In this document: positions 16,430 to 35,799 of the stretch, one piece after another
Position numbering within the stretch: position 1 is the stretch's first letter
How the letters are laid out: each line of letters opens with the position of its first letter
Source of the DNA: Marivita lacus
GTDB taxonomy: Bacteria; Pseudomonadota; Alphaproteobacteria; Rhodobacterales; Rhodobacteraceae
Reading direction: 5' to 3'
DNA: 64,000 nt
Assembly: GCF_014637725.1 (NCBI RefSeq)
Contig: NZ_BMFC01000017.1
Location: forward strand, 1-64,000
Translations under genes and position numbers: made by a program
The notes under the pieces: model-generated
Databases searched by the model: none
What the model saw: only the letters and a program-made list of their open reading frames with translations
What the model was told of the DNA's origin: nothing

Positions 16430-17757
16430 ATCTTTGCTCCATCCGCAAGAACGCCAAGTCGCTTGGCTGCATCCAGCTCGGCGCGGGCGGCCTGAAATTT
16501 CAGGTCGAGTTGTTTCTCAAGCGCCCGCAGGAAGGTCTCGTAGACGCTGACCACATCCATCACCTGACGCGTGCCCGCATCATATTGGCGCTGGAAGAGG
16601 TCGAGATTGGTCTTGGCCTGTGCTGTCAGCCCTTCGGCCTCGGCGGCTTGCCGCTTCAGCGCGGCGATGCTGCGCTGATCGGCTTCGATGGCGCGGCGCG
16701 AGATGTCCTCGGCCTCGGTCACCTTGCGGTCAGCGGTGATCTTGGTGGCTTCGATGGCCTGCAAGGAGGCACCGGTGCCGATGCCGAGCATCTGTTCGGT
16801 GTTCACGCTCAGCGCCAGACCTTCGCCGCCATTGCGCACACTGCCCCCGGCGGACAGCCCCGGCAGATGCGCCGCGCGGGCGATCCGGGCCTGCGCCAGT
16901 TGCCGGTCGCGTTCCACCTTGGCGCGCAGCACGTCAAGCGACTGGGTTGCAGGGGTTGCCCCCATCCCGCGCAAACCGCGCTGGTCCGCCAGCGACACTG
17001 CCGACAGTGCATTCAGCTCGGCCACAGCGCGGGTGGTCTTTTCCCGCGCCGCCGCATCGCGGGCGCGCAGATCCGCCAGCTTTTGTTTCAACACGTTGAG
17101 GTCAGAGAAATCCGAAACGCCGCCTTTGACGCGCTCGTTCATGACCCATTCGAACTGGCCCATGTCCCTGAGCGCCTGACCATAGAGGTCTGCCGCAGCA
17201 CGGCCTTCTTCGGCCTGAAGATACAGGACCAGCCCGTCATGAACCCGGTCATTGCTGCTTTCCGACAATGCCACGGCAGCCAGTTCCACATCGGCCTTGG
17301 CAAGATCGCGTTCCGCCTTCTTGCGACCGTTGTCGAACAGCACCTGGTTGATCACCAGGTCGGCCACCAGGTCACCCAGCGATGTCAGCGTGATGCGCGG
17401 AGAAATCGTCGGCCACCAGTTCCTCGACGCAGCCTCGGCGCGCAATTGCGCCACCTGCAATTCGGCTTCGGCCACGCGGGCATCGGCGGCCAGCACACCG
17501 GCGGCCACCTGCGAATAGGGGCTGCCGGGAGTCAGTACGCTCTGACGTGTCGCCAGCTCTGCAATGATCGGAGACGCCTCTTGCGTCGTGACCGCCATGG
17601 ATGCGGCAGTCTGTGTCTCGCCTGCGATGTCCGTGGGTGCGTCCGGTTGGGCGGACAGGAACCGCGACACGGTCCCGGCGCCCATGTCCTGCATACATCC
17701 CGAAAGAGCCGTTGCCGCAAGCAAAGCCCCTGCCAGTGCCCTTGTCTTCTGCCTCAT
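16426..17757 (-). CDS. TolC-like outer-membrane efflux lipoprotein of the type I secretion system
   Basis: 443 residues starting MRQKTRALAGALLAATALSGC. The ATG at 17757 is chosen over the earlier frame opening at 17811 because it yields a lipoprotein signal ending in lipobox ALSGC. The body is the duplicated coiled-coil pattern of the OEP/TolC family, with long Ala/Glu/Arg-rich helices (VAEAELQVAQLRAEAASRNW, ISRRAIEADQRSIAALKRQA). The last repeat contains the family-typical FQRQYDAGTRQVMDVV. It supplies the outer-membrane exit duct. It follows the adhesin gene by 85 bp and overlaps the ABC gene by 4 bp. Confidence 0.9.
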   Translation of the reverse strand: MRQKTRALAGALLAATALSGCMQDMGAGTVSRFLSAQPDAPTDIAGETQTAASMAVTTQEASPIIAELATRQSVLTPGSPYSQVAAGVLAADARVAEAELQVAQLRAEAASRNWWPTISPRITLTSLGDLVADLVINQVLFDNGRKKAERDLAKADVELAAVALSESSNDRVHDGLVLYLQAEEGRAAADLYGQALRDMGQFEWVMNERVKGGVSDFSDLNVLKQKLADLRARDAAAREKTTRAVAELNALSAVSLADQRGLRGMGATPATQSLDVLRAKVERDRQLAQARIARAAHLPGLSAGGSVRNGGEGLALSVNTEQMLGIGTGASLQAIEATKITADRKVTEAEDISRRAIEADQRSIAALKRQAAEAEGLTAQAKTNLDLFQRQYDAGTRQVMDVVSVYETFLRALEKQLDLKFQAARAELDAAKRLGVLADGAKI

Positions 17758-17842
17758 GTCGATTGAGCCCCCGCCTTTGGCTTCTTTTTGTGTCGGGGCT
17801 CGGGCCGTCACCTCAACGGCCCGAACGAAATCATCCTCTTCC

Positions 17843-20800
17843 TCAGATTGAGACGTTGTTGATGTCCTCGTCGATCAGCAGGGTGGCATCGCCCAGTTCG
17901 TAGACGTTGAAGTTCGTGCCATCCTCAAAGCGCGAACCGGTGCGGGCGGCGCCGGTGATCCGGACGGTTTCGTCCGAGTTGCCCAAGACGCGCACCGTGT
18001 TGTCCTCGCCGGTAAGTGCAACGATCTGTGCCTCGGTGATGGTCAGCGTTGCCTCTTCGGTGAATTCGAGGTCGATCGTGTCGATCTCCCGACCGCCGAT
18101 ATTGCTGGCAAGGCTCACGTTGCTCCGGCTGACATCCGGGTCGCCAAGCACGACGTAGGTGCCCGTGCTGTTGCCCGCACTGTCGGTCGCGGTGACCACA
18201 AGATGGGATCCGTCCGGCACGACATTGTTGAAGGTGTAGCTGGTCTCGCCGGTAAAGCTGTTGTCCTGCTCGTTGAAGGCAACACTCTGCGCACCGCCCG
18301 AGCCGACCCGGACGATGGACACGTCATGGTCTGTGGTCTCGAGGATGATCCCGCGAGGCGCCTGGGTTTGATCCCAGGTGACCGCCGTCATGTCCGGCGC
18401 ATCTGGGGCCACGTTGTCCACCACCATGGTCTCGGTGATGGACCTGGTGTTGCCCGCCCGATCCGTGGCCGCGATCTGGATCGACACGTTCTCGCCATCG
18501 GCGGTCGGGATCACGCTCGCGGGAACGGCGACGGACCATGTGCCGCCGCTGACCTGTGCGGTCATGCGCTGGCCACCAATGGTTACTTCGACGGTCGATC
18601 CCTGTTCGACCTGCCCGGTCAGGGTAAAGCCCTGCGCCGCTTCGGCTTCGCTCACCACGCCGTCGCTGCCACCCGGCTGGCTGGTCGAGGTCAGCGGCAC
18701 CACTTCGGTATCCACCTGGAAGGTCTTGGAGGTCGTCGCGGTGTTGCCAGCACGGTCCTGCGTGCTGATCTGGGCGGTGGTGGTGTAGGTGCCATCCGGC
18801 AGTTCAAGCGATGTGAAGCGCGCAGTCCAGTTGCCCGCCGCATCGACGGTGGCCGGGCGGCTGACGCCTTCGACCACAACGGTGACCGTCGCACCCGGTT
18901 CGGTTGTCCCGCTCAGCGTCACGCCCTGCGTCTGTTCGGCGTCGTTGACGATGTTATCCGCCGTCACGGGGTTCGCGCTGACTGCAAAGTTGCGCACGAA
19001 GGTGTCGACCATCACCGTGTCGGAGCGCGTCAGCTCGTTGCCCGCCGCATCCACGGTATAGGCTGTGATCTGCGCCTCGTATTCGCCGGGGCGGATTTCA
19101 CCCGGTGCATAATTCGCGCGCCAGATGCCGAACCCGTCTGTCTGCACGGTCTTCGTGACGCCATCCAGCGTAACATCGACAGCCTGGAACGGGGTCGAGG
19201 TGCCAGTGATCTGAACGCCATCCGACGCTTCGACCTGGTTGATCACATCATCGGTTTCGATCGGAGCCGGGCTGATTGTCAGAAGACCCGCATCGGTGTC
19301 GAACACGACGTTTCGGGTCTCGGTGGCCGTGTTGCCCGCAAGATCGGTCGAGCTTGCCGTGAGGATCACCGTCTGTTCGCCCGAAGGCAGTTCATTCGCC
19401 GAGAACGTCACCGTCCAGTTGCCGTTCGCATCGACGCTTGCATTGCGGGACGCACCACCGCCCAGCGCAACGGACACCGAAGCGCCCGGTTCGGTCGTGC
19501 CGGTCACGGTCATGCCCTGCATCGCCTCTTCGGCGTTCACGATGCCATCGGCACCTCCCGCCTGGCTGGTGATGTCGAAATTGCGCACCCAAGTGTCGAG
19601 GACAACCTGCCCGGTTGCGCTGCTGGTGTTGCCCACCTCGTCGGTCGAGGTCGCGTTGATCGTCAGGTTCTGTTCACCGACCGGGATCTCGGTTGCGGTA
19701 AAGGTCACGGTCCAATTGCCCTGCGCATCCACGAAGGCAGTGCGCGTGTAGCCGTTCATGTCAACCAAGACGGTCGATCCGGCATCGGTTGTGCCGGTAA
19801 TCTGCACGCCGTCGGTGCGCTCTTGCGCGTTGATGATGCCGTCTGTTTCGATGGTCGTCGTATTGATCGTCACACCCGAGACCGTGTCGATCTCGATCCC
19901 GTCATTGATCGTGGTCGAGTTGTTGAAGCTGTCGGTCGCGATGACGGTGATGTTCTCGATATATTCGCCACGCTCGAAGGTCGAACTGGTGAGCGTCACG
20001 CTCCAGTTGCCTGCGGCATCCACATCCGCGACATGGCTGACGCCACCCGCGATGAGCACAACCGTCGCGCCGATCTCGGTGGTGCCTGTGACTGTCGTGC
20101 CGCCGTCGAATTCACTGTCTGTGATGATGTCGCCAAATGCCGTGGTGCCGCTGGTGATCGCAACCGGCGGAGGCGTGGTGTCGATGATCACCGTGGGGCC
20201 GTCCAGATCGGTTTCGCCGTCCGTGCCCGTGACCTTTACATCCACCTCGTATTCACCATCAGGCGGGAAGTTCGGCCCTTCGAAGACCACTTCCCATGTC
20301 CCGTCCGGCCCGGTGGTCGTGGTTTCCGTGTTGTCGCCGATCACGACGACAACCGTGTCGCCCTCGTTCGCGGTGCCGCTGACCAGAACCGTGCGGTCTT
20401 CTTCGGTCAGGCCATCGCCACCGATCACGTATTCGCCGTCATTGACGGTCGGAGCCCGAGGGCCGCCGCCTTCGCCCTCGTTGCCAATGAGCCCGCCGCC
20501 GCTACCGTCACCGCCGCCGTCACCACTGCCACCGATCACCGCCGCGCCGGTCGCAACCGCAGCACCGCCCGCCAGCCAGGGCAGCATGCCGCCACCCGCC
20601 AGAAGTCCCGCCGCCAGCATCGTCACGCCGCCTTCGTTTTCGGCGGCAACGTAATCCGCCGCAACCACATCTGCGCGATCAAAGAAGACAAGAGCGTCGT
20701 CCGGGCTCCATTTGCCCCAGGCCGCGACATCGGCGTATTGCGCAAACAGCGCCCCGCCATCCCCTTGGACAAAGGCCACTTCGCTCAGAACGCCGTCCGT

Positions 20801-21055
20801 GCTCAGGAACAGGCGACTGTTGCCGTCCCGCCCGAAATAATCCTCGAGAACGATCACCCGGCCATCGGCCAGCAGAACATGAAGATCGTTTTCCGCGCGG
20901 TCATAACTGCGCAGATCGGACCTGTGAATGTTCAGAGATATTTCGCGGCCATTAGAAGCGTCGATCAGATATCCGAGATCTTCTGCACCAACCACACCAC
21001 GCTCGACCGCGCCCGCACTTGTACGGACCACGAAATTAATCGCGTTCATAACCAC
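17843..21055 (-). CDS. Large Ig-like-repeat adhesin secreted by the type I system (BapA/LapA-like)
   Basis: 1070 residues. Residues 1-140 are a BapA-prefix-like beta domain (FVVRTSAGAVERG... VIVLEDYF). Residues 143-176 are a hydrophobic Gly/Ala-rich segment (MLAAGLLAGGGMLPWLAGG), then a Gly/Asp linker to about 200. Residues 200-1000 hold about seven clear Ig-like repeats of roughly 98 residues, each with G-T-x-x-x-G-x-x-V, D-A-x-G-N-W-x-V and D-x-A-G-N-x-x-x, plus one divergent copy. The C-terminal 70 residues (LTGEDNTVRVLG... FNVYELGDATLLID) look like an uncleaved type I secretion signal. No RTX GGxGxD repeats were found. Adjacent HlyD, ABC and TolC-like genes mark it as cargo. M3 (21049) is an alternative start. 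Confidence 0.88.
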   Translation of the reverse strand: MVMNAINFVVRTSAGAVERGVVGAEDLGYLIDASNGREISLNIHRSDLRSYDRAENDLHVLLADGRVIVLEDYFGRDGNSRLFLSTDGVLSEVAFVQGDGGALFAQYADVAAWGKWSPDDALVFFDRADVVAADYVAAENEGGVTMLAAGLLAGGGMLPWLAGGAAVATGAAVIGGSGDGGGDGSGGGLIGNEGEGGGPRAPTVNDGEYVIGGDGLTEEDRTVLVSGTANEGDTVVVVIGDNTETTTTGPDGTWEVVFEGPNFPPDGEYEVDVKVTGTDGETDLDGPTVIIDTTPPPVAITSGTTAFGDIITDSEFDGGTTVTGTTEIGATVVLIAGGVSHVADVDAAGNWSVTLTSSTFERGEYIENITVIATDSFNNSTTINDGIEIDTVSGVTINTTTIETDGIINAQERTDGVQITGTTDAGSTVLVDMNGYTRTAFVDAQGNWTVTFTATEIPVGEQNLTINATSTDEVGNTSSATGQVVLDTWVRNFDITSQAGGADGIVNAEEAMQGMTVTGTTEPGASVSVALGGGASRNASVDANGNWTVTFSANELPSGEQTVILTASSTDLAGNTATETRNVVFDTDAGLLTISPAPIETDDVINQVEASDGVQITGTSTPFQAVDVTLDGVTKTVQTDGFGIWRANYAPGEIRPGEYEAQITAYTVDAAGNELTRSDTVMVDTFVRNFAVSANPVTADNIVNDAEQTQGVTLSGTTEPGATVTVVVEGVSRPATVDAAGNWTARFTSLELPDGTYTTTAQISTQDRAGNTATTSKTFQVDTEVVPLTSTSQPGGSDGVVSEAEAAQGFTLTGQVEQGSTVEVTIGGQRMTAQVSGGTWSVAVPASVIPTADGENVSIQIAATDRAGNTRSITETMVVDNVAPDAPDMTAVTWDQTQAPRGIILETTDHDVSIVRVGSGGAQSVAFNEQDNSFTGETSYTFNNVVPDGSHLVVTATDSAGNSTGTYVVLGDPDVSRSNVSLASNIGGREIDTIDLEFTEEATLTITEAQIVALTGEDNTVRVLGNSDETVRITGAARTGSRFEDGTNFNVYELGDATLLIDEDINNVSI

Positions 21056-21216: not shown

Positions 21217-22308
21217 TCAAATCTGGTCGATCACGCTCCGCGTCATGGCGGAATTTTGCGCAGCGAGCCCCATCCGAACCGCCCATGCACCATCCTCTAT
21301 TGACACGTCCGGCACACCGCCGTTGCGCACGAGATCGAGGAACCGCGCGTGCTGGTAAAAGGTCGATCCGTTGTGGTCGCCCGCCTCGAGGATCGTAGGA
21401 TCGACCGGGATATCCACCGCCTGCGGCCCCTTGGGATGGCGCGGGCTGATGATCACCTGCGGCACCGGCGGCGCGCCCAGATGGGTCGGCCAGAATCGCC
21501 CCGGCCCCGGAACGAAGGCCTCGATCTTGCCATTCGGCCCAACCGCGCTGATCTCTTCCTGATAGCGCGCGCCTTCGGCATACATGCACAGCTCCAGCAT
21601 CGCCCGCGCGCCATTGGCGAAATCGACGATCACGTAGGCGCTGTCCCAGATGTCCGGCACCTCGCCGTTGTAGTGCTCGTCCAGATGGTTCACCTCCTGC
21701 CCCGCGCTTGCGGTCACGCGCACCGGATCGGACCCGAGGATCAGCCGCATCAGGTCGAAGAAGTGACAGCATTTCTCGACCAGCGTGCCGCCGGTGTTGC
21801 GGTTGAAGCGGTTCCAGTCCCCCACCTTGTGCAGGAACGGAAAGCGGTGCTCGCGGATGGTCAGCATCTTGACCCCGCCCGTGGCGCGCTGCACCTCTTC
21901 GGCAAAGGTCTGGATCGGCGGCATGTATCGATATTCCATCGCCACCCAGATCGGCGCGGGATAGCTGGCGGCGATCGCCTCGACCCGCGCGATGTCCGCC
22001 GCATCGGTATAAAGCGGCTTTTCCATCAAAAGCGGCAGCGGGTTGAGTTCCGCGATCTGCTCCAACGCGTCGATATGGCAGTGGTTCGGGCTGGCCACCA
22101 GAAGGCAGTCCAGATCATCGCGTGCCAGCAGATCGGCGATGGAGGATTCCAGCGTGGCACCCGGCACGATCGCCTTGGCCGCCGCCGCCATGATCTCGTC
22201 CGGCTCAAAGATCGCCGCCACCCGCGCGCCTTGAAGCAGGGCGATATTGCGCAGATGTTCCTGCCCCATCATGCCGCATCCGATAATGCCGTAATTCACA
22301 ACGTCCAT
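21217..22308 (-). CDS. Gfo/Idh/MocA-family NAD(P)-dependent oxidoreductase, possible NAD-dependent sulfoglycosidase
   Basis: 363 residues starting MDVVNYGIIGCGMMGQEHL. The N-terminal Rossmann motif is GIIGCGMMG. The family EKP motif is MEKPLYTDAAD, and the C-terminal alpha/beta domain contains HRFPFLHKVGDWNRFN and GGTLVEKCCHFFDLMRLI, the helix carrying the catalytic histidine. Family members oxidise sugars or cyclitols, and some hydrolyse glycosides by transient NAD oxidation. NAD-dependent sulfoquinovosidases of this fold (GH188) have been reported in sulfoquinovose gene clusters. Divergent neighbours are an SsuD-like monooxygenase, an aldo-keto reductase and a flavin reductase. The family call is firm; the sulfoglycosidase role is inference. 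Confidence 0.88.
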   Translation of the reverse strand: MDVVNYGIIGCGMMGQEHLRNIALLQGARVAAIFEPDEIMAAAAKAIVPGATLESSIADLLARDDLDCLLVASPNHCHIDALEQIAELNPLPLLMEKPLYTDAADIARVEAIAASYPAPIWVAMEYRYMPPIQTFAEEVQRATGGVKMLTIREHRFPFLHKVGDWNRFNRNTGGTLVEKCCHFFDLMRLILGSDPVRVTASAGQEVNHLDEHYNGEVPDIWDSAYVIVDFANGARAMLELCMYAEGARYQEEISAVGPNGKIEAFVPGPGRFWPTHLGAPPVPQVIISPRHPKGPQAVDIPVDPTILEAGDHNGSTFYQHARFLDLVRNGGVPDVSIEDGAWAVRMGLAAQNSAMTRSVIDQI

Positions 22309-22345
22309 GGTGGTCCTTGAGGTGATGCGCGCGACGTGGCGCGGT

Positions 22346-23047
22346 CTAGGTGATGCGCGCCACGTAGCGCGCGACGTCCGTGTTGATCCAGTTCCACGAG
22401 GCTTCGGCCGCCTCGCCTTCGGGGCCGTAGCTGACCCGCGTTGCCCGCATGCAGGGCTGCCCGGCGGACGGCCCAAAGGCCGGCGGCGCCCAATCCGGCA
22501 CCACCGCCAGATCAAGCCGGTCCACCGCCTTGGTGATCCAGAGCCCCAGCGTCTCGCGGTAGTAAAGATAGAGCGACTCGCGAAGTGCAATCGCGTCGAT
22601 CACATCCGCATAAGACCCGTCCAGCCAGATCTCCTCGAGCACTGCAGGCACATTGTTCAAGCGCCGCAAGCGCCGGATGCGGTGACCCTCGGGTGACGCT
22701 CCAAAGCGCGGAAAGCCGTCAGGCTTGACACGCCTGTCCACCGACAAAAGCTCTGCCGTAGGCAGTCCGCCGCCCTCGATCAGTTCGACCCGGAAGAAGG
22801 CGTAGACGGAGTGCGCGTCGGGCTTGGCCCGCACGTAATTGCCCGACCCCTGCACACGTTCGAGCAGCCCCTGCACGGTCAATTCATCCAGCGACTTGCG
22901 CAGCGTGCCCACGGAAATGCCAAGACGCGCCGCCATCTCCCGCTCGGGAGGGAGGCGTTCGCCATCCACCAGCCGACCAGCCTGAATGTCACGGATCAGC
23001 AATTCGCTGATCTGGACGTATTTCGGCAGGGCATGGCTATCGGACAT
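22346..23047 (-). CDS. GntR-family regulator with UTRA sensor domain
   Basis: About 233 residues starting MSDSHALPKYVQISELL. The winged helix is at residues 15-75 (GERLPPEREMAARLGISVGTLRKSLDELTVQGLLERVQGSGNYV is the region; key pattern PPEREMA). The UTRA effector domain follows from about 85 (VPAVLEEIWLDGSYAD is typical). A GTG at 23071 is an alternative start, but it would add residues outside the family fold. UTRA domains bind sugars or sugar phosphates. It sits between the Gfo/Idh gene and the divergent catabolic operon and is the probable local repressor of both. Confidence 0.9.
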   Translation of the reverse strand: MSDSHALPKYVQISELLIRDIQAGRLVDGERLPPEREMAARLGISVGTLRKSLDELTVQGLLERVQGSGNYVRAKPDAHSVYAFFRVELIEGGGLPTAELLSVDRRVKPDGFPRFGASPEGHRIRRLRRLNNVPAVLEEIWLDGSYADVIDAIALRESLYLYYRETLGLWITKAVDRLDLAVVPDWAPPAFGPSAGQPCMRATRVSYGPEGEAAEASWNWINTDVARYVARIT

Positions 23048-23132
23048 TTCTCGCACCAGCAATTGATACACTATTGATCTACATTTTTGGCGGTGCTACG
23101 CAAGAGGAAATGATACGTTGCGGAGACACCTT
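23048..23132. promoter_or_regulatory. Divergent promoter region between gntR and the monooxygenase operon
   Basis: 85 bp between the two divergent starts. It contains a direct repeat ATTGAT-N5-ATTGAT at 23062-23078 and an AT-rich stretch. It is the natural place for the GntR operator, but no clear palindrome stands out. Confidence 0.35.
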
Positions 23133-24287
23133 ATGACCATCGTGCCGATCACCTCCCCCGACCTCAATGCGGTCGAGGTGTCGTGGTTTGCGGCCCTGTG
23201 TTCCGACGATTACCAGTTCCTCGGCGTGCCCGATGGCAGCCTGCGGTCAAGCTTCGCGCATTGTTCCAACATCGTGAAAGAGGCCGAGGCGCAGGGCTTT
23301 CGCAACATCCTGTGCCCGTCCTCCTACCAGGTGGGTCAGGACACGCTGTCCTTTGTCGCCGGTTGCGCACCGATCACCGAACAGATCAACATGCTGGCCG
23401 CCGTGCGCTGCGGCGAGATGCAGCCGATCATGCTGGCGCGCACCATCGCGACGCTGGATCACATGCTCGAAGGGCGTCTGACGGTGAACATCATCTCGTC
23501 CGATTTTCCCGGCGAAAAGGAAGACAGCAAACTGCGCTACCAGCGGTCCCGCGAAGTGGTCGAAATTCTGAAGCAGGCGTGGACCCAGGACAGCATCACC
23601 TACAAGGGCGAGGTTTACGACTTCGACGGCCTGACCACCGATCCCGCGAAACCTTACCAGACCGGCGGGCCGCTGCTTTACTTCGGCGGCTACTCCCCCG
23701 ATGCGCTGGAACTCTGCGGCCAGCATTGCGATGTCTACCTGATGTGGCCCGAGCCCAAGGATCAGATCGCCCAGCGCATGAAGGATGTGAACGCGGTGGC
23801 CGAACGCTATGATCGCACGCTGGATTACGGGTTGCGGGTGCACGTGATCGTCCGCGACACCGAGGCCGAGGCCCGCGACTACGCGCAGCACATCGTCAGC
23901 CAGTTGGACGACGATCAGGGCAAGACGATCCGCGAACGGGCGCTTGATGCGACCTCGCTGGGCGTGTCGCACCAGTCGAAAAACCGCGAACTGGCCGACA
24001 TGGAAGGCTTTGTCGAACCGCATCTGTGGACAGGTGTGGGCCGCGCGCGTTCGGGCTGTGGAGCCGCGCTGGTCGGATCCACCGATCAGGTGCTCAGCGA
24101 GTTGGAGCAGTACCAGAAGATGGGCATCCGCGCCTTTATCCTGTCGGGCTATCCGCATCTGGAGGAATGCCGCCACTTCGGCAGCCGCGTATTGCCCAAG
24201 ATGAAAACAGTGCAACTGAACGAAGCCTATGGGCGCGTGCCGGATGGCACCCCGCTCACTCCGCTTGGTGCCGGGGAGCGCCGCTGA
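23133..24287 (+). CDS. SsuD/SmoC-like FMNH2-dependent sulfonate monooxygenase (LLM family)
   Basis: 384 residues. Line-up by eye with E. coli SsuD shows LLYFGGYSPDA, LRVHVIVRDTEAEA, LWTGVGRARSGCGAALVG and ILSGYPHLEE, so the SsuD active-site Arg226, His228, Arg297 and Tyr331 appear as R235, H237, an Arg in G-R-A-R (304/306) and Y340. SsuD Cys54 is replaced. The reaction class is oxidative C-S cleavage of a sulfonate to an aldehyde plus sulfite, with FMNH2 and O2. With the adjacent aldo-keto reductase and flavin reductase it matches SmoC, which turns sulfoquinovose into 6-dehydroglucose. An alkanesulfonate or other sulfonate substrate remains possible. The start is the ATG at 23133. Confidence 0.87.
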   Translation: MTIVPITSPDLNAVEVSWFAALCSDDYQFLGVPDGSLRSSFAHCSNIVKEAEAQGFRNILCPSSYQVGQDTLSFVAGCAPITEQINMLAAVRCGEMQPIMLARTIATLDHMLEGRLTVNIISSDFPGEKEDSKLRYQRSREVVEILKQAWTQDSITYKGEVYDFDGLTTDPAKPYQTGGPLLYFGGYSPDALELCGQHCDVYLMWPEPKDQIAQRMKDVNAVAERYDRTLDYGLRVHVIVRDTEAEARDYAQHIVSQLDDDQGKTIRERALDATSLGVSHQSKNRELADMEGFVEPHLWTGVGRARSGCGAALVGSTDQVLSELEQYQKMGIRAFILSGYPHLEECRHFGSRVLPKMKTVQLNEAYGRVPDGTPLTPLGAGERR

Positions 24288-24304
24288 TGCCCCGTCGCAA
24301 GTCA

Positions 24305-24363
24305 CCAGAAATTAATGTAGAGCGCCCAGATTCTTCTACGAAGAATCTGTTACAGACCAGCGC
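24305..24363 (+). repeat. Palindrome-centred intergenic element, copy 2
   Basis: CCAGAAATTAATG, GCGCCC, then a perfect stem at 24327-24349 (arm CAGATTCTTC, loop TAC), then GCAAGAAAATT. Same order of blocks as 8951-9018. Here it sits inside an operon, between the monooxygenase and aldo-keto reductase genes, and could attenuate or process the message. Confidence 0.6.
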
Positions 24364-24387
24364 AAGAAAATTCCGGGGGATACAGCG

Positions 24388-25281
24388 ATGACCATGGACC
24401 GCGTCACACTCAACGACGCCCTCGACCTCAGCCGCCTTGTCTATGGCATGTGGCGGCTGGGCGACGATGCCGACACAAGCACGGACCATATCCGCAACAA
24501 GATCAGCGCCTGCCTCGATCAGGGCATCACCACGATGGATCAGGCCGACATCTATGGCGGCTACGAGGCCGAGGAGATCCTGGGAAACGCCCTCACACCC
24601 GAGCTGCGCAACCGGATCGAAATCGTCACCAAATGCGATATCGTGGCCCCGGTCGGGCGCTATGCCGATGCACGGGCCAAGCATTACGATACCTCCCGCG
24701 CGCATATCCTGTCCTCGGTTGATCATTCGCTGCGGCTGATGAAGATCGACCATATCGACCTTCTGCTGATCCACCGCCCCGACCCGCTGATGGACCACCA
24801 TGAAACAGGCGCGGCACTGGACGAGGTTGTGGCAAGCGGCAAGGTCCGCGCGGTTGGTGTGTCGAACTTCCGCCCCTGGGATTGGGAGCTTCTGCAATCC
24901 GGCATGACAACCCAACTGGTCACGAACCAGATCGAGATCAGCCTGCTGCATCACGCGCCCTTCACCAATGGCGATATCGCGTTCCACCAGAAGAACGGCC
25001 AGCCGCCGATGGCGTGGTCGCCGCTGGGCGGGGGGGCGCTGTTCGATGGCAAGAACGCCGCGCTGCGCACCGCCCTGAAGACCGTTGGGGAAGATCACGG
25101 CGTCGATGAAGCCTCGGTTGCGGTCGCCTGGCTCTTGGCGCATCCCGCGCGCATTCTACCTGTCCTCGGCACCAACAATCTGGACCGGATCGCCCGTATC
25201 GGCGATGCTGCCCGCATACAGATCGACCGGGAGACATGGTTTGACCTTTACACCCACGCCCTTGGCCATGAAGTGGCCTGA
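24388..25281 (+). CDS. Aldo-keto reductase, SmoB-like (6-dehydroglucose reductase candidate)
   Basis: 297 residues. The AKR catalytic tetrad is visible as D51 (TTMDQAD), Y56 (DIYGG), K82 (VTKCD) and H129 (LIHRPD). The C-terminal cofactor-binding part has AWSPLGGGALF and VLGTNNLDRIA. As I recall the Agrobacterium SmoB sequence, the stretches YGMWRLGDDADTS and DQADIYGGY are very close to it; this was not aligned. SmoB reduces 6-dehydro-D-glucose to glucose after desulfonation. The gene follows the monooxygenase by 100 bp that hold a palindromic element. The annotation without context would be a YdhF-like oxidoreductase. Confidence 0.87.
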   Translation: MTMDRVTLNDALDLSRLVYGMWRLGDDADTSTDHIRNKISACLDQGITTMDQADIYGGYEAEEILGNALTPELRNRIEIVTKCDIVAPVGRYADARAKHYDTSRAHILSSVDHSLRLMKIDHIDLLLIHRPDPLMDHHETGAALDEVVASGKVRAVGVSNFRPWDWELLQSGMTTQLVTNQIEISLLHHAPFTNGDIAFHQKNGQPPMAWSPLGGGALFDGKNAALRTALKTVGEDHGVDEASVAVAWLLAHPARILPVLGTNNLDRIARIGDAARIQIDRETWFDLYTHALGHEVA

Positions 25282-25289
25282 GACACGCG

Positions 25290-25796
25290 ATGAACGACTT
25301 GACCCATAGTTTCGATCCCGCACAGGACAACGCCCGCGAGTATCGCGCGGCGCTTGGCCGTTTCGGAACCGGTGTCACCGTCATCACCTGCGATACAGGT
25401 GACGGCCCCCTGGGCATCACGGCCAACAGCTTTGCCAGCGTGTCGCTCGACCCGCCTCTGGTGCTGTGGTCACCCGCGAAATCCTCGAGCCGGTACCCGT
25501 TCTTCATGGCGGCGGATCATTTCGCCATCCATGTGGTCGGCGCCGAACAAGCCGAGCTGTGCACGGCGTTTGCGCGCAACGGCAACCCGTTCGACCAGTT
25601 CGACTGGGACCGGGGCGATCACGATGTGCCCCTGCTCGACAACTGCCTGAGCCGGTTCGAATGCACCAAGGTGGCCGAACATGACGGCGGCGATCATTCC
25701 ATCGTCGTGGCCCGCGTGCGCCTTGTGACAACGCGGGACGGAGACCCGCTCCTGTTTTTCAGTGGACGCTACGGAGGCTTTACGGAACCGACATAA
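25290..25796 (+). CDS. Flavin reductase family protein (NADH:FMN reductase, SmoA/HpaC type)
   Basis: 168 residues, the typical size of the flavin reductase-like (HpaC/RutF) split-barrel family. Diagnostic stretches are FGTGVTVITCDTGDGPLGITANSFASVSLDPPLVL (FMN-binding; key residues T-A-N-S-F and S-x-D-P-P) and FAIHVVGAEQAELCTAFA. It ends with LLFFSGRYGGF. It would supply reduced FMN to the monooxygenase two genes upstream, and it starts 8 bp after the aldo-keto reductase stop. The presence of all three genes in one operon is the main support for the sulfo-SMO assignment. Confidence 0.88.
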   Translation: MNDLTHSFDPAQDNAREYRAALGRFGTGVTVITCDTGDGPLGITANSFASVSLDPPLVLWSPAKSSSRYPFFMAADHFAIHVVGAEQAELCTAFARNGNPFDQFDWDRGDHDVPLLDNCLSRFECTKVAEHDGGDHSIVVARVRLVTTRDGDPLLFFSGRYGGFTEPT

Positions 25797-25865
25797 ACCG
25801 CCCCGATAACAGCAAAAAACGGGGCCACCGGCAGGGAGGCCGGTGTGGGAGAGGGAGGAGGCCGC

Positions 25866-26444
25866 ATGGCCATTTTGCTGGGGCTTCTGGCTCCGTTTCA
25901 GATGTTCAACGACGTTGTGCTGCGCTTGGGCCGTGGCATTGCCATCGTTGCCATCGGCCTGATGGTCTGCGCCATCCTTCTGCAGGTGTTCTGTCGCTAC
26001 GTTCTGGGCGACGCCCTGCCCTGGCCCGAAGAGGCCGCGATTTTCCTGATGCTCTGGATGACCGCCGTCATCGCGCCCTCGGCCTATCGCCGGGGCGGGT
26101 TCGTGGCGCTGGAGATCCTGTCCTCCGCCCTGCCCAAACGCGGTGCCGCCGTGCTGGCGCTGCTCCTGCTGCTGATCTCGGGCATGGTGCTCTATATCGG
26201 GGCGCAGATGGGGCTGAGCGAAATGTCCGGCCTTGCCGGCAAGTTCAAGAGCGCGTCGCTCAAATACCCGACACCGGATGGCTGGGTGAAGATGCCGAAC
26301 TCCTGGCAGATCGCCTCCCTTGTGACCGGGCTCTGGCTGCTGTTCATCGTCAATATCGAATTGATCCTGCGCAATCTCATCACCCTGGCCGGAGGAGAAG
26401 ACCGCTTGCGCTCCAACCTCGACGCCGAATTGACGGTGGAATAA
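25866..26444 (+). CDS. dctQ: TRAP transporter small permease subunit
   Basis: 192 residues starting MAILLGLLAPFQMFNDVVL; the ATG at 25866 follows a good GGGAGGAGG ribosome-binding site. Four hydrophobic segments are visible (near residues 20-40, 53-75, 92-112 and 148-168). The family motif region is FCRYVLGDALPWPEEAAIFLMLWM, with key residues R-Y and W-x-E-E. It pairs with DctM in a TRAP uptake system. The gene lies between the flavin reductase and dctM and is part of the same operon. Confidence 0.9.
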   Translation: MAILLGLLAPFQMFNDVVLRLGRGIAIVAIGLMVCAILLQVFCRYVLGDALPWPEEAAIFLMLWMTAVIAPSAYRRGGFVALEILSSALPKRGAAVLALLLLLISGMVLYIGAQMGLSEMSGLAGKFKSASLKYPTPDGWVKMPNSWQIASLVTGLWLLFIVNIELILRNLITLAGGEDRLRSNLDAELTVE

Positions 26445-26448
26445 TCCC

Positions 26449-27738
26449 ATGCTGGTCTGGTTCCTGCCCTTGTTCCTGCTGTTCCTGATGATCGGCCTGC
26501 CGGTGTTCTTCGGCATGCTGGCCGCCCCCGGCCTGCTGCTCTGGCTCAACGGTCAGGACCGCGACCTGATCCTGCTCTATCGCAACGTCTATAACGGCAT
26601 GGCCAGCTTTCCGCTGATGGCGATCCCGTTCTTCATGCTGGCGGGCGAATTGATGAACCGGGGCGGCATCACCATGCGGCTGGTGGAATTCAGCCAGGCG
26701 ATGATGGGCCATTTCCGCGGCGGCCTCGCGCATGTGAACGTGCTGTCCTCGATGCTGTTCGCGGGTCTGTCCGGCTCGGCCGTCGCCGACACCTCTGCGC
26801 TGGGGTCGATGCTGATCCCGGCGATGCAAAAAGAAGGCTACACCCGCAAATTCGCCGCCGCGATCACCGCTGCCAGTTCCGTCATCGGCCCGATCATCCC
26901 GCCCTCGGGCATCATGATCATCTACGCCTACGTGATGGGCGAGTCGGTCGCGGCGCTGTTCCTTGCAGGCATCATCCCCGGCATCCTCGTGGGCATCGGC
27001 CTGATGATCATGGTCAAGGTGATGGCCGACAAATACGATTTTCCCGCATCGCGCAGCAAAGCAAGCTGGGGCGAACGCGGTCAGGCGTCGCTCAAGGCGT
27101 TCTTCCCGCTGATGACGCCGGTGATCATCCTCGGCGGCATCCTCGGCGGTGTCTTCACCCCGACCGAGGCGGCGGCCGTGGCGGTGGGTTATGCGATCAT
27201 CGTCGGCATGTTCATCCTGCGCACCCTGACGCTGCGCGACCTGCCCGACGTCTTCATGCGCGCCGCCATGACATCGGCCACCGTGCTGCTGCTCGTCGGC
27301 GCCGCGATGGCGTTCAAGACGGTGGTGTCGCTGTCGCACACGCCGGAAATCCTGGCCGAGTTCGTGCTGGGCCTCAGCGAGAACCCGTTGATCCTGCTGT
27401 TCCTGATCAACCTGCTGCTCTTCGTCGTGGGCATGTTCCTCGATGCGGGTCCCGCGATCATCATCCTTGGTCCGATCCTCGGGCCGATCTTTGTCGACCT
27501 GGGCGTCGATCCGATCCACTTCGCCATCATCATGTCCGTCAACCTGACCGTGGGGCTGGCCACACCGCCGATGGGGCTGGTGCTGTTCGTCGCGTCCAGC
27601 GTGTCGGGCGAACGGGTCGAGACCATCTCCAAGGCGATCCTGCCGTTTCTGGCGGTGGAGATCGTGGTCATTTTCCTGATAACCTTCATCCCCGAGATAT
27701 CCATGACCATTCCGCGGCTCACCGGGTTCGCGGACTGA
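26449..27738 (+). CDS. dctM: TRAP transporter large permease subunit
   Basis: 429 residues, full length, about 12 membrane segments. Characteristic DctM stretches are FPLMAIPFFMLAGELMNRGG, SAVADTSALGSMLIPAM and GIIPGILVGIGLM, plus the second-half VNLTVGLATPPMGLVLFV. It forms the ion-coupled translocation channel. It starts 4 bp after dctQ. TRAP importers carry organic acids, sugars acids and sulfonates; the partner binding protein determines the substrate. Confidence 0.95.
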   Translation: MLVWFLPLFLLFLMIGLPVFFGMLAAPGLLLWLNGQDRDLILLYRNVYNGMASFPLMAIPFFMLAGELMNRGGITMRLVEFSQAMMGHFRGGLAHVNVLSSMLFAGLSGSAVADTSALGSMLIPAMQKEGYTRKFAAAITAASSVIGPIIPPSGIMIIYAYVMGESVAALFLAGIIPGILVGIGLMIMVKVMADKYDFPASRSKASWGERGQASLKAFFPLMTPVIILGGILGGVFTPTEAAAVAVGYAIIVGMFILRTLTLRDLPDVFMRAAMTSATVLLLVGAAMAFKTVVSLSHTPEILAEFVLGLSENPLILLFLINLLLFVVGMFLDAGPAIIILGPILGPIFVDLGVDPIHFAIIMSVNLTVGLATPPMGLVLFVASSVSGERVETISKAILPFLAVEIVVIFLITFIPEISMTIPRLTGFAD

Positions 27739-27796
27739 CATCTGCGGGTCACATGGCCCGTGTAACCGACCCAAGAAAGCAACAGGGAGAACACCA

Positions 27797-28855
27797 ATGC
27801 TCAAAGGTCTTACCACAGCGGCGCTGACAGCCGCCCTTCTCGCCGGGAGCGCGATCACCGCAGCGGCGCAGGATTTCACCATCCGGGCGACAGCGAACTC
27901 GAACGAGAACGACGAGGATTACGACGGTCTCGTGGTCTTCAAGAACCATGTCGAGAACGCCTCGAACGGGCGCATCGCGGTCGAGCTGTTCATCGGCACG
28001 CAGCTGTGCTCGGGCGGCGCGGAATGCCTTCAAGGTGTGTCCGACGGCTCCATCGACGTGTTCGTGACAACTTCGGGCGGTGCCGCGGGCATCTTCCCCT
28101 ATGTGCAGGTGCTCGACCTGCCCTACCTGATGTCAGATGATCGCGTGGCGGAACACGTGCTGTCGGGGGATTTCACCCGCACCATGCGCGAGATGGCGCT
28201 TGAGGATTCGGGTGACACAATCCGCATCATGACCATCGGCAACACCGGCGGCTGGCGCAACTTCGCCAACACGCAGCGCCGCGTGACCCAGCCCTCCGAC
28301 CTCGAAGGTCTCAAGATGCGCACCGTGGTGGCCGACCTGCCGCAGGAACTGGTCAAGGTGCTGGGCGCATCGCCCACCCCGATCAGCTGGCCCGAGCTGT
28401 TCACCTCGCTGCAGACCGGGGTTGTCGACGGCACCAAGAATGGCATCACCGACATCATGAGCATGAAGTTCCCGGATGCGGGCCTTCAGTACCTGACGCT
28501 GGACGGTCACGCCTACATGGGCGCGATCTGGGTGATGAACAACGAAAAGTTCATGTCCATGCCCGAGGACATGCGCCGCGTCGTGGTGGACGGCTTTGCA
28601 GCGCTCCAGCAGGCGACATTCGCGTCACCCAAGCGCAAGTCGATCACGGCCTATGAGGAATTCGTGGCCGGTGGCGGCGACCTGTACGTGCCGACCATCG
28701 AGGAAAAGGAAGCTTTCCGCGTTGCCGCAGCACCGGTGTTCGACTGGTTCCAGGCGAATGTCGATGGCGGCCCGGAAATCTATGAAGCCCTGACCAAGGC
28801 CGTGGCCGAAGCCGAAGCCGATCTGGCCGCGGAATATGAGGCCGATCTGAACTGA
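27797..28855 (+). CDS. dctP: TRAP transporter periplasmic substrate-binding protein
   Basis: 352 residues with a Sec signal peptide (MLKGLTTAALTAALLAGSAI, cleavage near AAA-QDF). The DctP fold is marked by LEGLKMRTVVADLPQELV, which carries the conserved arginine that salt-bridges the ligand carboxylate in this family, and by FTSLQTGVVDGTKNG. It captures the substrate for DctQM. Because the same operon encodes a putative sulfonate monooxygenase, a sulfonated sugar acid or sulfoquinovose-type ligand is the inference. It is the last gene before a strong terminator. Confidence 0.93.
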   Translation: MLKGLTTAALTAALLAGSAITAAAQDFTIRATANSNENDEDYDGLVVFKNHVENASNGRIAVELFIGTQLCSGGAECLQGVSDGSIDVFVTTSGGAAGIFPYVQVLDLPYLMSDDRVAEHVLSGDFTRTMREMALEDSGDTIRIMTIGNTGGWRNFANTQRRVTQPSDLEGLKMRTVVADLPQELVKVLGASPTPISWPELFTSLQTGVVDGTKNGITDIMSMKFPDAGLQYLTLDGHAYMGAIWVMNNEKFMSMPEDMRRVVVDGFAALQQATFASPKRKSITAYEEFVAGGGDLYVPTIEEKEAFRVAAAPVFDWFQANVDGGPEIYEALTKAVAEAEADLAAEYEADLN

Positions 28856-28877
28856 TCCGGTTCTGAACGCAGGATCT

Positions 28878-28907
28878 GGCCTCGGAGGACACTCCGGGGC
28901 CTTTTTC
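28878..28907 (+). terminator. Rho-independent terminator after dctP
   Basis: A 10-bp stem (GGCCTCGGAG with CTCCGGGGCC, one T-G wobble) and a 4-nt loop, followed by TTTTT. It lies 22 nt after the dctP stop and closes the monooxygenase-TRAP operon. Confidence 0.88.
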
Positions 28908-29374: not shown

Positions 29375-29851
29375 TCACCGAAACGGGTAGAGCCAGACCC
29401 TGTAGTCCTCCACGAGCTGTTGCGCATGTTCGATCTGTTCCGGCGTCATCTTCTTGACCACTTCCCCGATCGAGATCGCCGCGTCGGGGTCGCCTCCGAT
29501 GGCGCTGAGCTGATACCACAGAAACGCGCGGACGAGATCGGGCGCGGGCAGGCCCTGACCGGTCTCGTAGTGCCGACCGACGCCCGATTGCGCGCCCGGA
29601 TGGCCCTTAATCGCGGCGCGCAGGTGCCACTCAAAGGCGCGGACATGGTCCTGCTCGACGCCACGACCCAGCGCGTACATGGCGCCGATCAGGTCCTCGG
29701 CCTCGGCATTGCCCGACCGGGCGGCGGGCCAGAGCGCGTCATACGCCTCTTCAAAGCGGCCCTCTTCCATCAGGTCGCGGGCATCTTCGATATCGGCCTG
29801 CGCGGATGTGGCCAGCAGGCAACAGGCAAACATCCAATGGGTCAGCTTCAT
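29375..29851 (-). CDS. Secreted SEL1-repeat protein
   Basis: 158 residues starting MKLTHWMFACCLLATSAQAD, a Sec signal peptide with cleavage near AQA-D. The mature protein has SEL1/TPR-like helical repeats: LMEEGRFEEAYDALWPAARSG, A-E-A-E-D-L-I-G-A-M-Y-A-L-G-R-G-V, and the third repeat LVRAFLWYQLSAIGGDPDA. Such proteins are periplasmic scaffolds. Its start codon lies inside the first codons of the divergent peroxidase gene, so the two share a promoter region or one start is wrong. The second ATG (residue 7) would reduce the overlap. Confidence 0.82.
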   Translation of the reverse strand: MKLTHWMFACCLLATSAQADIEDARDLMEEGRFEEAYDALWPAARSGNAEAEDLIGAMYALGRGVEQDHVRAFEWHLRAAIKGHPGAQSGVGRHYETGQGLPAPDLVRAFLWYQLSAIGGDPDAAISIGEVVKKMTPEQIEHAQQLVEDYRVWLYPFR

Positions 29852-31144
29852 CTTGGTTTGCTCGTCTCTTTGTCTCTGGCCGCGCCAGCCGTGGCACACC
29901 CGATCAGCGCCGAAGATTTCATGGCCTTCGATGCCGATCAGGCGCGGCTGGGTCAACTGTTGTTCTACGACAAGATCCTGAGTGGAAACAGGAATATCTC
30001 GTGCGGAACCTGCCATCATCACGACCTTGGCGGCACGGACGGTCTGTCCTTGGGAATTGGCGAGGGCGGTGTCGGGCTTGGGCCGCGGCGCACGCCCGGT
30101 GACGGACCGGACCGGATCGCCAAGCGTATTCCGCGCAACGCGCCGGCGCTGTGGAACCTCGGGCACAAGGACGTGCGGGTGCTCTTTCATGACGGCCGGC
30201 TCGAGGTGTCGGAGATCTACGGCAACGGCTTTGACAGCCCGGCCGAGGCATTTCTGCCACAGGGCTTGGACACGATCCTTGCCGCGCAGGCGCTGTTCCC
30301 GCTGACCGCGCAGTTCGAGATGGCGGGCAACGTGGGCGAGAACGAGGTGATCGGCGCAGTGATGGACCGGGTCGATCTGGGCTGGCCGATCCTGGCCAAG
30401 CGGGTGCGCACGATCCCCGAATACGGCGAAATGTTCGTGCAGGCCTTTGACCACATCGACCGCCCCGAAGAGGTGACCATCGTCGAGATCGGCAATGCGC
30501 TGGCGGCCTTCATCGGCACCGAATGGGCGAATTACGACAGCCCCTATGATGCGTTCCTGACAGACGGCACTCCCCTGCCCACCGATGCGGAACGCGGGCG
30601 GCAGTTGTTCTTTGGCGCGGCGCGCTGTGCGCAATGCCACAACGGGCCGTTGCTGAGCGATCAGGATTTCCACGCGATGGCGCTGCCGCCGTTCGGGCCG
30701 GGACGCACAAGGAAGTGGGATCCGATCCCGCGCGATGTGGGGCGGATGGGCGCGACGGATGACCTTGATGATGCGTACCGCTTTCGCACCCCCGCGCTGC
30801 GCAACGTCGCACTGACCGCGCCTTACGGGCATAACGGCGCCTATACGAGCTTGCGCGACATGGTGCGCCACATGGCTGACCCGGTGTCGATGCGCGCGGG
30901 CTGGACGCCGGAGCGGGCCGCGTTGCCCGATGTGCCCTGGTTGCAAAAGATCGATTTCATCATCCAGTCCGACCGGCTGGAACTGCAACGCCAGACCGAC
31001 ACGCTGGATGTGCGCCCGGTGTCGCTGACCGATACCGAGGTGGACGATATCGTGGCGTTTCTAGAAAGCCTAACCGGGGCGACCGCGCTGACACGCCCGC
31101 TTGGCCGTCCTGCGCATGTGCCAAGTGGGTTGCCCGTGGACTGA
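29837..31144 (+). CDS. Dihaem cytochrome c peroxidase / MauG-family protein
   Basis: 435 residues with a signal peptide (MGQLHLGLLVSLSLAAPAVA). Two c-type haem motifs are present: CGTCH at residues 56-60 and CAQCH near 273, each in family context (NISCGTCHHHDLGGTDGL; GARRCAQCHNGPL-like). FRTPALRNVALTAPYGHNGAYTSL is the conserved C-terminal stretch with a distal ligand. It reduces hydrogen peroxide in the periplasm using cytochrome electrons, or acts as a MauG-like oxidase. It overlaps the divergent SEL1 gene by 15 bp at the 5' ends. Confidence 0.9.
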   Translation: MGQLHLGLLVSLSLAAPAVAHPISAEDFMAFDADQARLGQLLFYDKILSGNRNISCGTCHHHDLGGTDGLSLGIGEGGVGLGPRRTPGDGPDRIAKRIPRNAPALWNLGHKDVRVLFHDGRLEVSEIYGNGFDSPAEAFLPQGLDTILAAQALFPLTAQFEMAGNVGENEVIGAVMDRVDLGWPILAKRVRTIPEYGEMFVQAFDHIDRPEEVTIVEIGNALAAFIGTEWANYDSPYDAFLTDGTPLPTDAERGRQLFFGAARCAQCHNGPLLSDQDFHAMALPPFGPGRTRKWDPIPRDVGRMGATDDLDDAYRFRTPALRNVALTAPYGHNGAYTSLRDMVRHMADPVSMRAGWTPERAALPDVPWLQKIDFIIQSDRLELQRQTDTLDVRPVSLTDTEVDDIVAFLESLTGATALTRPLGRPAHVPSGLPVD

Positions 31145-31743: not shown

Positions 31744-32355
31744 TCACAGACCGGATATGGCCTTCAGATGGGTCAGCACCTCGTCAACGCCGCGGTCATG
31801 ACGGATCGCGGCAAAGACAAAGGGGCGGCCCTGGCGCATCTTCGTGGCGTCGCGGTCCATCACCTCGAGCGATACGCCCACATGCGGGGCAAGATCGGTC
31901 TTGTTGATGACAAGGATATCCGACCGGGTCAGCGCGGGGCCACCCTTGCGGGGAATGTCCTCACCCGCAGCCACGTCGATCACGTAGAGCGTCACATCCG
32001 CGAGTTCGGGACTGAACGTGGCCGACAGGTTGTCACCACCGGATTCGATCAGCACCACCTCGACATCCGGGTGACGGCGAACCATCTCGGCCACCGCCGC
32101 CAAATTGATCGACGCATCCTCGCGGATGGCTGTGTGCGGGCAGCCGCCGGTTTCCACACCGATCACCCTGTCGCGCGGCAGGATCTGCATGCGCATCAGC
32201 GCCTCCGCGTCTTCCTGCGTGTAGATGTCATTGGTGATCACGCCAACGGAATGGCTGTCTTTGAGCCGCTTGGCCAGCGCTGCGGTGAGCGAGGTTTTCC
32301 CCGCCCCAACCGGGCCACCGATGCCGACACGAAGGGGTCCGTTGCGGGTGGTCAT
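31744..32355 (-). CDS. ureG: Urease accessory GTPase UreG
   Basis: 203 residues with P-loop [15 protein letters not shown] near the N-terminus. The nickel-site CPH motif is in [15 protein letters not shown], and [10 protein letters not shown] is the G4 guanine-specificity motif. UreG hydrolyses GTP to load nickel into urease together with UreD, UreE and UreF. The start overlaps the ureF stop by 4 bp. It is the last gene of the urease operon. Confidence 0.97.
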
Positions 32356-33008
32356 GTGCGGAATATCCTTGGGCTGAGGGTCTCGTGACGCATCGCGGCG
32401 ATATCGGCAGCAAAGCTCTGGCTGGTCAGGTCGTCAAGCGTTCCGGTCTCGGTCTGTGCTGCAATGTCGGAACAGAGCGGCGCAAGGGCCGACACGATCC
32501 GCTGCGCCTCGGTCTGGCCCAGCGCCATCAGACGTTGGCAGGCGGCAACCACGGCGGCGACCCAGGCGTGCAGATACACCTGCACCGCCATGGTCAGGGG
32601 CAGCCCCAGATGCCGGATGCCCACGCCCAGCGCGACCGGGTAGGTGAGGTTCGTGGCGTCGATGCCCCAATTGGCGCGCAACTGGTCGCAGAACGCCGCC
32701 CCCTGCGCGTCGATCTCCAAAAGCCGTTCGCGGCTGGGGCAGAACGCGCGGGCGGTCTGGTCCACCTCATGCGGGTCCATGCCGCTGGCCGCAGCCCGGA
32801 TCAGCAGCGCATCGCTGATCCCGTTGCCGTCGCGCAGCATGTCCGACAGCCAGTCCTCGACCGTTCGGGGTGTGACAACCCCGTCGGCAATCGCCTGCTC
32901 CAGCCCGCTGGAATAGGCGAAGGCCCCGATGGGAAAGCCCGGCGACAGCCATTGCGCCAGCGTCAGGATCGGGTCAGTGCGCGTGTGCATGGGTGCGTCC
33001 ATGGCCAT
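32352..33008 (-). CDS. ureF: Urease accessory protein UreF
   Basis: 218 residues. [21 protein letters not shown] near residue 18 is the UreF signature. The rest is all-helical, ending LSPRIFRT as is typical. UreF links UreD to UreG in the maturation complex and gates GTP hydrolysis. The first ATG (33008) overlaps ureE by 35 bp; ATGs at 33002 and 32990 are alternatives, and the last gives less overlap. Confidence 0.94.
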
Positions 33009-33414
33009 AGGCCCCGCCTTCCGGGGTGAAGGGTTCGACCCGTTCGATCACCACAGCACCCAGCTTGCCGAGCATGTCGCGGATCACGTGATCCGGCTGG
33101 ATCAGCAGACGCGTGGCCTCCACCTGACAGGGCGTGTGGCGGTTGCCGATATGCCAGGCAAGACGGACAAGGTTGTCGCCGGTGATTTCGAGCAGAGGCT
33201 CGGGGGCGGCCACCACTTCGATCTCGCGCCCGTCTTCGAGTTTCAGCGCACCGCCATGGTTGAGCGAGGTTGTGGTTTCGAGGTCCAGCAGGAAGTCGAG
33301 ACCACCATCGGTGGTGAGAACGCGCCGCCGCAGGAACCGCGCCTCGTAGCTCAGGGATATGGTGTCGGCGGGGGTGCCGTGGGTGTGCGGATGGTAGGTG
33401 GAAACGGTGAGCAT
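32974..33414 (-). CDS. ureE: Urease accessory nickel chaperone UreE
   Basis: 146 residues. The N-terminal peptide-binding half contains [21 protein letters not shown] (key: R-x-R-R-R-x-x-T-x-D-G). The metal-binding half has [11 protein letters not shown], the conserved nickel-site His. The C-terminus is His-rich ([10 protein letters not shown]), giving extra nickel storage. It delivers nickel to the urease apoprotein. Confidence 0.95.
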
Positions 33415-33461
33415 TTGGAGCTTCTCAGGTTAGCGATGTGGATGGCACGGCGCGACAACGC

Positions 33462-35222: not shown

Positions 35223-35276
35223 ATCAGGCCCTCTTCGCTCCGTGTTTCGTCAGGCGCGTGTGTCTGGCGCGGGTCA

Positions 35277-35758: not shown

Positions 35759-35772
35759 TGTCACACCTTTTC

Positions 35773-35795: not shown

Positions 35796-35799
35796 ATGT

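Follow-up and report, generated by a model that had tools for sequence, protein, structure and literature searches.

A sulfosugar-type locus in Marivita lacus

We analysed a 64,000-nucleotide stretch of the Marivita lacus genome (assembly GCF_014637725.1, contig NZ_BMFC01000017.1, positions 1 to 64,000; hereafter the window), which carries a divergent gene cluster resembling the sulfo-SMO (sulfoquinovose monooxygenase) pathway, coupled to genes for a tripartite ATP-independent periplasmic (TRAP) importer. An earlier sequence-only reading had listed a monooxygenase, an aldo-keto reductase, a flavin reductase and DctQMP in one operon, with a GntR/UTRA regulator and a Gfo/Idh gene facing the other way. 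Our open reading frames (ORFs) and Pfam matches confirm this content and order, all eight genes being open and intact at the coordinates below. A hairpin at the operon's end agrees with the terminator placed there by that reading, although a scan for such sites, which returned 13 against a shuffle mean of 7.1, is by itself weak evidence. The source genome is 4.77 Mb and 99.98% complete, and the closest named relatives at the locus are other Marivita, with identities of up to 94% for SmoC and up to 96% for DctP. The features are as follows.

21217-22317, minus strand: predicted GH188 sulfoquinovosidase, NAD+-dependent, of the SqgA type and with a Gfo/Idh fold; its ATG is probably the one at 22308, 37 bp past the GntR gene.
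22346-23047, minus strand: GntR/UTRA regulator (PF00392 and PF07702), co-oriented with the GH188 gene and upstream of it; likely ATG at 23047, the ORF reaching a GTG at 23071.
23061-23082, no strand assigned: candidate GntR operator, AATTGATACACTATTGATCTAC, between the divergent genes.
23133-24287, plus strand: SmoC, predicted FMNH2-dependent sulfoquinovose monooxygenase of the LLM family (PF00296; PDB matches 7oh2 and 7olf).
24388-25281, plus strand: SmoB, predicted 6-dehydroglucose reductase, an aldo-keto reductase (PDB matches 7bbz and 7bby).
25290-25796, plus strand: flavin reductase at SmoA's place, HpaC/FerA-like (PF01613).
25845-26444, plus strand: DctQ, TRAP small permease (PF04290).
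26449-27738, plus strand: DctM, TRAP large permease (PF06808; TIGR00786 above its cut-off).
27797-28855, plus strand: DctP, TRAP solute-binding protein (PF03480), probable ligand sulfoquinovose or its glycosides.
28878-28901, plus strand: terminator-like hairpin downstream of DctP, with 10 pairs of which 8 are GC, followed by the T run TTTTTCGTTT.

Enzymes of the operon

Comparison with solved structures identified the monooxygenase and the aldo-keto reductase as orthologues of SmoC and SmoB. The monooxygenase matched 7oh2 (678 bits) and 7olf (671 bits) over its whole length, the next entries being 7jv3 at 191 bits and SsuD (1nqk, 1m41) at 182 bits; the aldo-keto reductase matched 7bbz and 7bby at 425-426 bits, with the next distinct protein at 213 bits. 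We take 7oh2 and 7olf, named alkanesulfonate monooxygenase and methanesulfonate sulfonatase in the PDB, to be SmoC of the sulfo-SMO pathway, and 7bbz and 7bby, the former named aryl-alcohol dehydrogenase, to be its SmoB. The proposal of a sulfo-SMO-type locus had turned on the monooxygenase falling with SmoC and not with SsuD; it groups with SmoC, and a placement with SsuD was rejected on the scores (182 against 678 bits). The Arg/His/Arg/Tyr catalytic pattern of SsuD, which had been read in this protein, is indeed kept, aligning to R235, H237, R306 and Y340. In E. coli SsuD the pattern comprises R226, H228, R297 and Y331; opposite Cys54 of SsuD the monooxygenase has no Cys. Two members of the SmoC-SmoB-SmoA set named in the sequence-only reading are supported by these PDB scores; the third, the flavin reductase, is placed by its family, its best NCBIfam model being FerA at 208 bits (cut-off 260) and its best PDB match 4xhy at 154 bits.

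The Gfo/Idh gene had been treated as an unexplained stand-in for a GH31 sulfoquinovosidase, the family to which we take the Agrobacterium enzyme to belong. Judged by its sequence it is instead a GH188 NAD+-dependent sulfoquinovosidase, because it matches SqgA structures and keeps all of the ligand and catalytic residues that we mapped. Its best PDB entries were 8zn9 (548 bits) and the SqgA structures 8qc2 and 8qc3 (363 bits over ~357 residues), and the next scored 70 bits. The ArSqgA residues given in the available part of Kaur et al. 2023 (PMC10755693), K107, Y136, R166, L170, K172, E189, H193 and H321, correspond here to K100, Y129, R158, L162, K164, E181, H185 and H315, so that eight of eight are kept, including the sulfonate-binding Arg, Leu and Lys. 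The mapping was manual, from the alignment as printed, with numbering on the 366-aa translation; the paper's Glu163 was left out of the count, alignment position 163 being a Val beside a Glu. The likeness to SqgA is thus one of fold family and of these eight residues, whereas the Arthrobacter enzyme is distant in sequence and, in the available description, sits in a sulfo-EMP (sulfo-Embden-Meyerhof-Parnas) cluster, unlike the gene here. A plain dehydrogenase was rejected on the GH188 match; the best NCBIfam model, inositol 2-dehydrogenase, gave 99 bits, its cut-off being 355. The genome yielded neither a second strong GH188 copy nor a match to the GH31 family model (PF01055).

The sequence-only reading had called the exchange of importer and glycosidase a distinct version of the pathway. 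The exchange is present; however, GH188 is described as near-universal in sulfo-SMO clusters of marine roseobacters in the available part of Kaur et al. (PMC10755693), and therefore that part of the claim, in print since 2023, is not new.

Distribution among relatives

Of at least 548 confirmed stretches with a SmoC relative we examined the best 80, some of them incomplete loci, scoring neighbours up to 9 kb from SmoC by tblastn with the window proteins. GntR and SmoB were near SmoC in all 80, GH188 in 79, the flavin reductase in 73 and DctP in 57; all eight genes were present in 56, so that the grouping is no chance arrangement. At least 5 kb past SmoC was available in 74 loci, 17 of which lack this DctP.

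Across 295 genomes of the same family, with E-value limits applied and counts that ignore kinship between genomes, SmoC was found in 124, GH188 in 145 and DctP in 102. SmoC genomes hold GH188 in 121 of 124 cases and DctP in 76, within 10 kb in 72 of these and on separate contigs in the other four. The co-occurrence of DctP and SmoC gives a Fisher odds ratio of 8.8, uncorrected for kinship.

A TRAP importer in two kinds of cluster

All three TRAP proteins, DctP, DctQ and DctM, are present at the locus. GH188 accompanies DctP in 97 of the 102 genomes that have it, including 23 of the 26 that lack SmoC. Loci were fetched for 20 of these 26 (fetched loci are given L numbers, genomes G numbers): a PfkB kinase occurs in 15, and a LacD-like aldolase, an isomerase-like protein and, within the stretch, GH188 in 14 each, the isomerase-like count being of homologues of the L083 protein. 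Family models were run for L083 alone. The families found at L083 were PF00294 and PF01791, and the best NCBIfam model for its isomerase-like protein was NF048012 (sulfoquinovose isomerase); that protein had no solved relative at E 0.001. For the L083 aldolase, 8tnf (306 bits) is a closer match than sulfofructosephosphate aldolase, to which the likeness is distant (66 bits). We infer that DctP-only clusters of this kind are sulfo-EMP-like. Four other DctP-only loci (L087, L088, L094 and L096) retain part of the sulfo-SMO neighbourhood (GntR, SmoB, flavin reductase or GH188) with no SmoC within the stretch, and at L094 a Rieske oxygenase-like ORF lies upstream, by reading.

A tree of DctP was built from 72 rows: 53 sulfo-SMO (window included), 15 sulfo-EMP-like and 4 other. 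The length and frame filter passed 71 of 77 loci, leaving out L013, L018, L026, L030, L056 and L094. On this tree the sulfo-EMP label changes seven times, at least five of the changes being forced by well-supported branches, with a bootstrap that is not fully settled. Examples with names are the megaplasmid of Ruegeria sp. TM1040 and a plasmid of Rhizobium sp. SL42. Both the co-occurrence and the tree support, by association, the earlier view of TRAP as the importer of the locus; its reuse in sulfo-EMP-like clusters had been overlooked.

A candidate operator between the divergent genes

The sequence-only reading had also recognised the GntR/UTRA regulator and missed a candidate operator beside it. 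With up to three mismatches, AATTGATACACTATTGATCTAC has a single match in the window and none in 100 shuffles. In the fetched loci, a relaxed 22-nt consensus with up to five mismatches allowed fell beside SmoC 87 times and elsewhere three times; two of the latter sites (L087, L096) adjoin a GntR gene in SmoC-less loci. Counted among the 87 are L001, which is this genome's own copy, and two loci, L019 and L108, that seem to come from a single genome. The operator sequence is, by direct observation, conserved.

A Sel1/MauG pair beyond the terminator

Past the terminator lie two probably associated genes that the sequence-only reading had overlooked.

29375-29851, minus strand: Sel1-repeat protein (PF08238) with a signal-peptide-like start, by reading.
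~29837-31144, plus strand: MauG-A, a di-haem protein of the cytochrome c peroxidase/MauG family (PF03150) with a signal-peptide-like start, by reading; start codon uncertain.

MauG-A has two CxxCH motifs, and its start region overlaps that of the divergent Sel1 gene. It shares these motifs and PF03150 with the MauG/bacterial cytochrome c peroxidase superfamily but reaches no NCBIfam cut-off (TIGR03981, 232 of 340 bits; TIGR04039, 128 of 363; TIGR03791, 111 of 444), and its scores fall below the curated cut-offs for membership among the MauG/MbnH tryptophan-modifying enzymes; its best PDB match is at 104 bits. Further out, by reading, are a long repetitive Ig-like or adhesin-type ORF (17843-21055) and, after it, type I secretion-like ORFs (13025-17811) on one side of the locus, and urease and urease accessory ORFs (31744-36930) downstream.

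To count this gene among genomes we defined a MauG-A set at 50% identity or more, a limit chosen after viewing the matches, where scores drop from 493 to 417 bits with one partial match at 456; a second copy in G064 and matches below 50% identity were left out. Among the matches listed, 83 of the 295 genomes hold MauG-A, and 77 of these hold DctP, within 10 kb in 64. Among the same matches, MauG-A is found in 57 of 76 SmoC genomes with DctP against 4 of 48 without. At least 5 kb beyond DctP was available for 44 of the 57 DctP loci among the 80, and 31 of the 44 have Sel1 and MauG together; where 5 kb past SmoC holds no DctP, MauG is present in 1 of 17 loci. In Ruegeria sp. TM1040 the series is complete, the pair being annotated as a tetratricopeptide repeat protein and a cytochrome c peroxidase, and a putative sulfate exporter comes next; in Rhizobium sp. 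SL42 and Roseicitreum antarcticum the TRAP loci that were fetched lack the pair. At L103 MauG-A adjoins a flavin reductase; in the genome concerned, G097, neither SmoC nor DctP was found within the E-value limits.

Ten of the sulfo-EMP-like loci (L083, L084, L086, L091, L095, L097-L099, L101 and L102) hold DctQMP, Sel1, MauG, PfkB kinase, LacD-like aldolase and the isomerase-like protein, with GH188 within the stretch in all but L102. We tentatively suggest that the dedicated sulfosugar TRAP importer is a portable front end, swapped between oxidative C-S cleavage and sulfo-EMP-like routes, and that a secreted di-haem MauG-like enzyme, usually together with Sel1, works with it in the periplasm. 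This enzyme may process or protect sulfosugar uptake, or may handle sulfite-derived peroxide; no such periplasmic step was seen in the pathway descriptions examined.

A competing explanation, that the pair is a mere syntenic neighbour with no part in sulfoquinovose use, has a substantial chance of being right, if somewhat below even. The pair lies past the terminator, without an operator copy near MauG, and NUDIX and urease genes come next; the NUDIX gene adjoins MauG in several relatives, with or without TRAP. It is absent from 13 of the 44 DctP loci with 5 kb beyond DctP, and the genome counts, as said, ignore kinship. Regional synteny, moreover, explains part of the MauG association, because a second, more distant MauG type also sits near the locus, up to 45 kb away in 7 of the 11 genomes with both on one contig (among the matches listed). 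Yet in the ten sulfo-EMP-like loci MauG lies directly 5' of the kinase on the same strand, its stop overlapping the kinase start because only -1 or 2 bp separate the last MauG codon from the kinase match. In the four SmoC genomes that have MauG-A and no DctP, it follows the sulfo-SMO flavin reductase. Furthermore, of the 77 co-occurrences listed, 13 are not within 10 kb: in four MauG-A and DctP share a contig at a distance of 14-636 kb, and in nine they are on different contigs.

Importer ligand and pathway model

Because one importer repeatedly switches from one sulfoquinovose pathway to the other, and is accompanied by GH188 in nearly all cases, the TRAP ligand is most likely sulfoquinovose or its glycosides, such as the glycerol glycoside. 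It is unlikely that TRAP imports another substrate, for example another phytoplankton sulfonate or a sugar acid, and merely shares the operon. In favour of another substrate, DctP has no close solved relative (119 bits at best, 94 to the isethionate binder 8t9t and 68 to the dihydroxypropanesulfonate (DHPS) binder 24gc), 48 of the 124 SmoC genomes manage without this DctP, and 5 of the 102 DctP genomes lack GH188; but this one DctP turns up with two sulfoquinovose pathways of different chemistry, having changed partner several times, and GH188 accompanies it in all other DctP genomes. The two sulfonate binders belong to the same DctP family and are distant from the protein here, whose substrate would be a sulfosugar. 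A structure model of DctP was too weak for reading a ligand site (mean predicted local distance difference test score 70.9, residues 171-223 below 50).

Among the matches listed in our literature search, covering titles and abstract openings, there was no paper on a sulfoquinovose TRAP importer or on this haem protein; we do not claim their absence from print. A study by Liu et al. 2023 reportedly presents sulfoquinovose as a roseobacter substrate in its title, and may describe an importer. ABC (ATP-binding cassette) transporters are implicated in sulfoquinovose uptake in the available part of PMC12421959, in which, as in that of PMC11659671, the word 'trap' appears for instruments only.

We conclude that the locus is very probably a roseobacter sulfo-SMO (sulfo-ASMO) sulfoquinovose operon, fed by TRAP, leading through GH188, SmoC and SmoB to glucose and sulfite, and controlled by GntR. 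In the model that we infer for enzyme activities, importer substrate, regulation and the fate of sulfite, DctPQM would bring sulfoquinovose or sulfoquinovosyl glycerol across the inner membrane, and GH188 would cleave the glycoside with catalytic NAD+. SmoC, using O2 and FMNH2 from the linked flavin reductase, would break the C-S bond to give sulfite and 6-dehydroglucose, which SmoB would reduce to glucose; GntR/UTRA would control both divergent transcripts at 23061-23082, probably as a repressor. As to a putative sulfate exporter, this genome has no PF03601 match, the family to which we take the exporter annotated beside the Ruegeria sp. TM1040 cluster to belong, and tblastn found the exporter in 5 of the 80 loci. 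At L119, by reading, a molybdopterin protein beside a SoxB-like ORF could oxidise sulfite. The catabolic steps are those described for sulfo-SMO in the available parts of reviews (PMC9594981, PMC12890257).

Several observations count against parts of this model. The flavin reductase, assigned by family (PF01613), is absent from 7 of the 80 loci, one of which (L007) is an incomplete locus. This DctP is missing from the 48 SmoC genomes noted above, and TRAP is not obligatory, because ABC-type transport genes take its place in HIMB11 (L032), by reading, and, according to the annotation, in Marinovum algicola DG 898. The L083 isomerase-like protein reaches 278 bits where NF048012 has its cut-off at 700, and 5 of the 20 DctP-only loci (L085, L087, L088, L094 and L096) fit neither pathway fully within the stretch. 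The link between GntR and its operator comes from position and conservation. That the operon serves a related sulfosugar or SsuD-like scavenging under sulfur starvation, instead of sulfoquinovose as a carbon source, is very improbable: SmoC shares the LLM family and the four catalytic residues with SsuD, but it is far closer to solved SmoC, it is linked to SmoB and to a GH188 with the sulfonate-binding Arg, Leu and Lys, and the available part of PMC13372026 recognises sulfo-SMO by its having both SmoB and SmoC.

The Agrobacterium and Novosphingobium sulfo-SMO systems share with the M. lacus operon a SmoC-type monooxygenase, a SmoB-type reductase and a flavin reductase, with sulfite and glucose as products. 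Agrobacterium, as described in the available part of PMC9594981, uses an ABC transporter for sulfoquinovosyl glycerol (SQGro) and its own sulfoquinovosidase, whereas here TRAP and GH188 take those places; TRAP lies in the operon and the genome has no PF01055 match, an ABC importer elsewhere in the genome not having been searched for. The roseobacter sulfo-SMO clusters with GH188 in the available part of Kaur et al. 2023 (PMC10755693) hold the same genes, with no essential difference seen, and the importer is not named in the main text. Ours is very probably a real, complete sulfo-SMO locus of this known roseobacter type, with TRAP its likely importer. The roseobacter enzyme set is already known, and the TRAP importer and the linked periplasmic haem enzyme appear to have been little studied.

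Sulfoquinovose production is put at ~10 billion tons a year in the available part of PMC10755693. The enzymes with which roseobacters use it are known, and its route of entry into their cells is undescribed in the papers examined. The locus is ordinary in kind, its parts of note being the portable importer and the haem partner; it offers a testable importer, a candidate operator for finding the regulon and a periplasmic haem enzyme linked to the importer.

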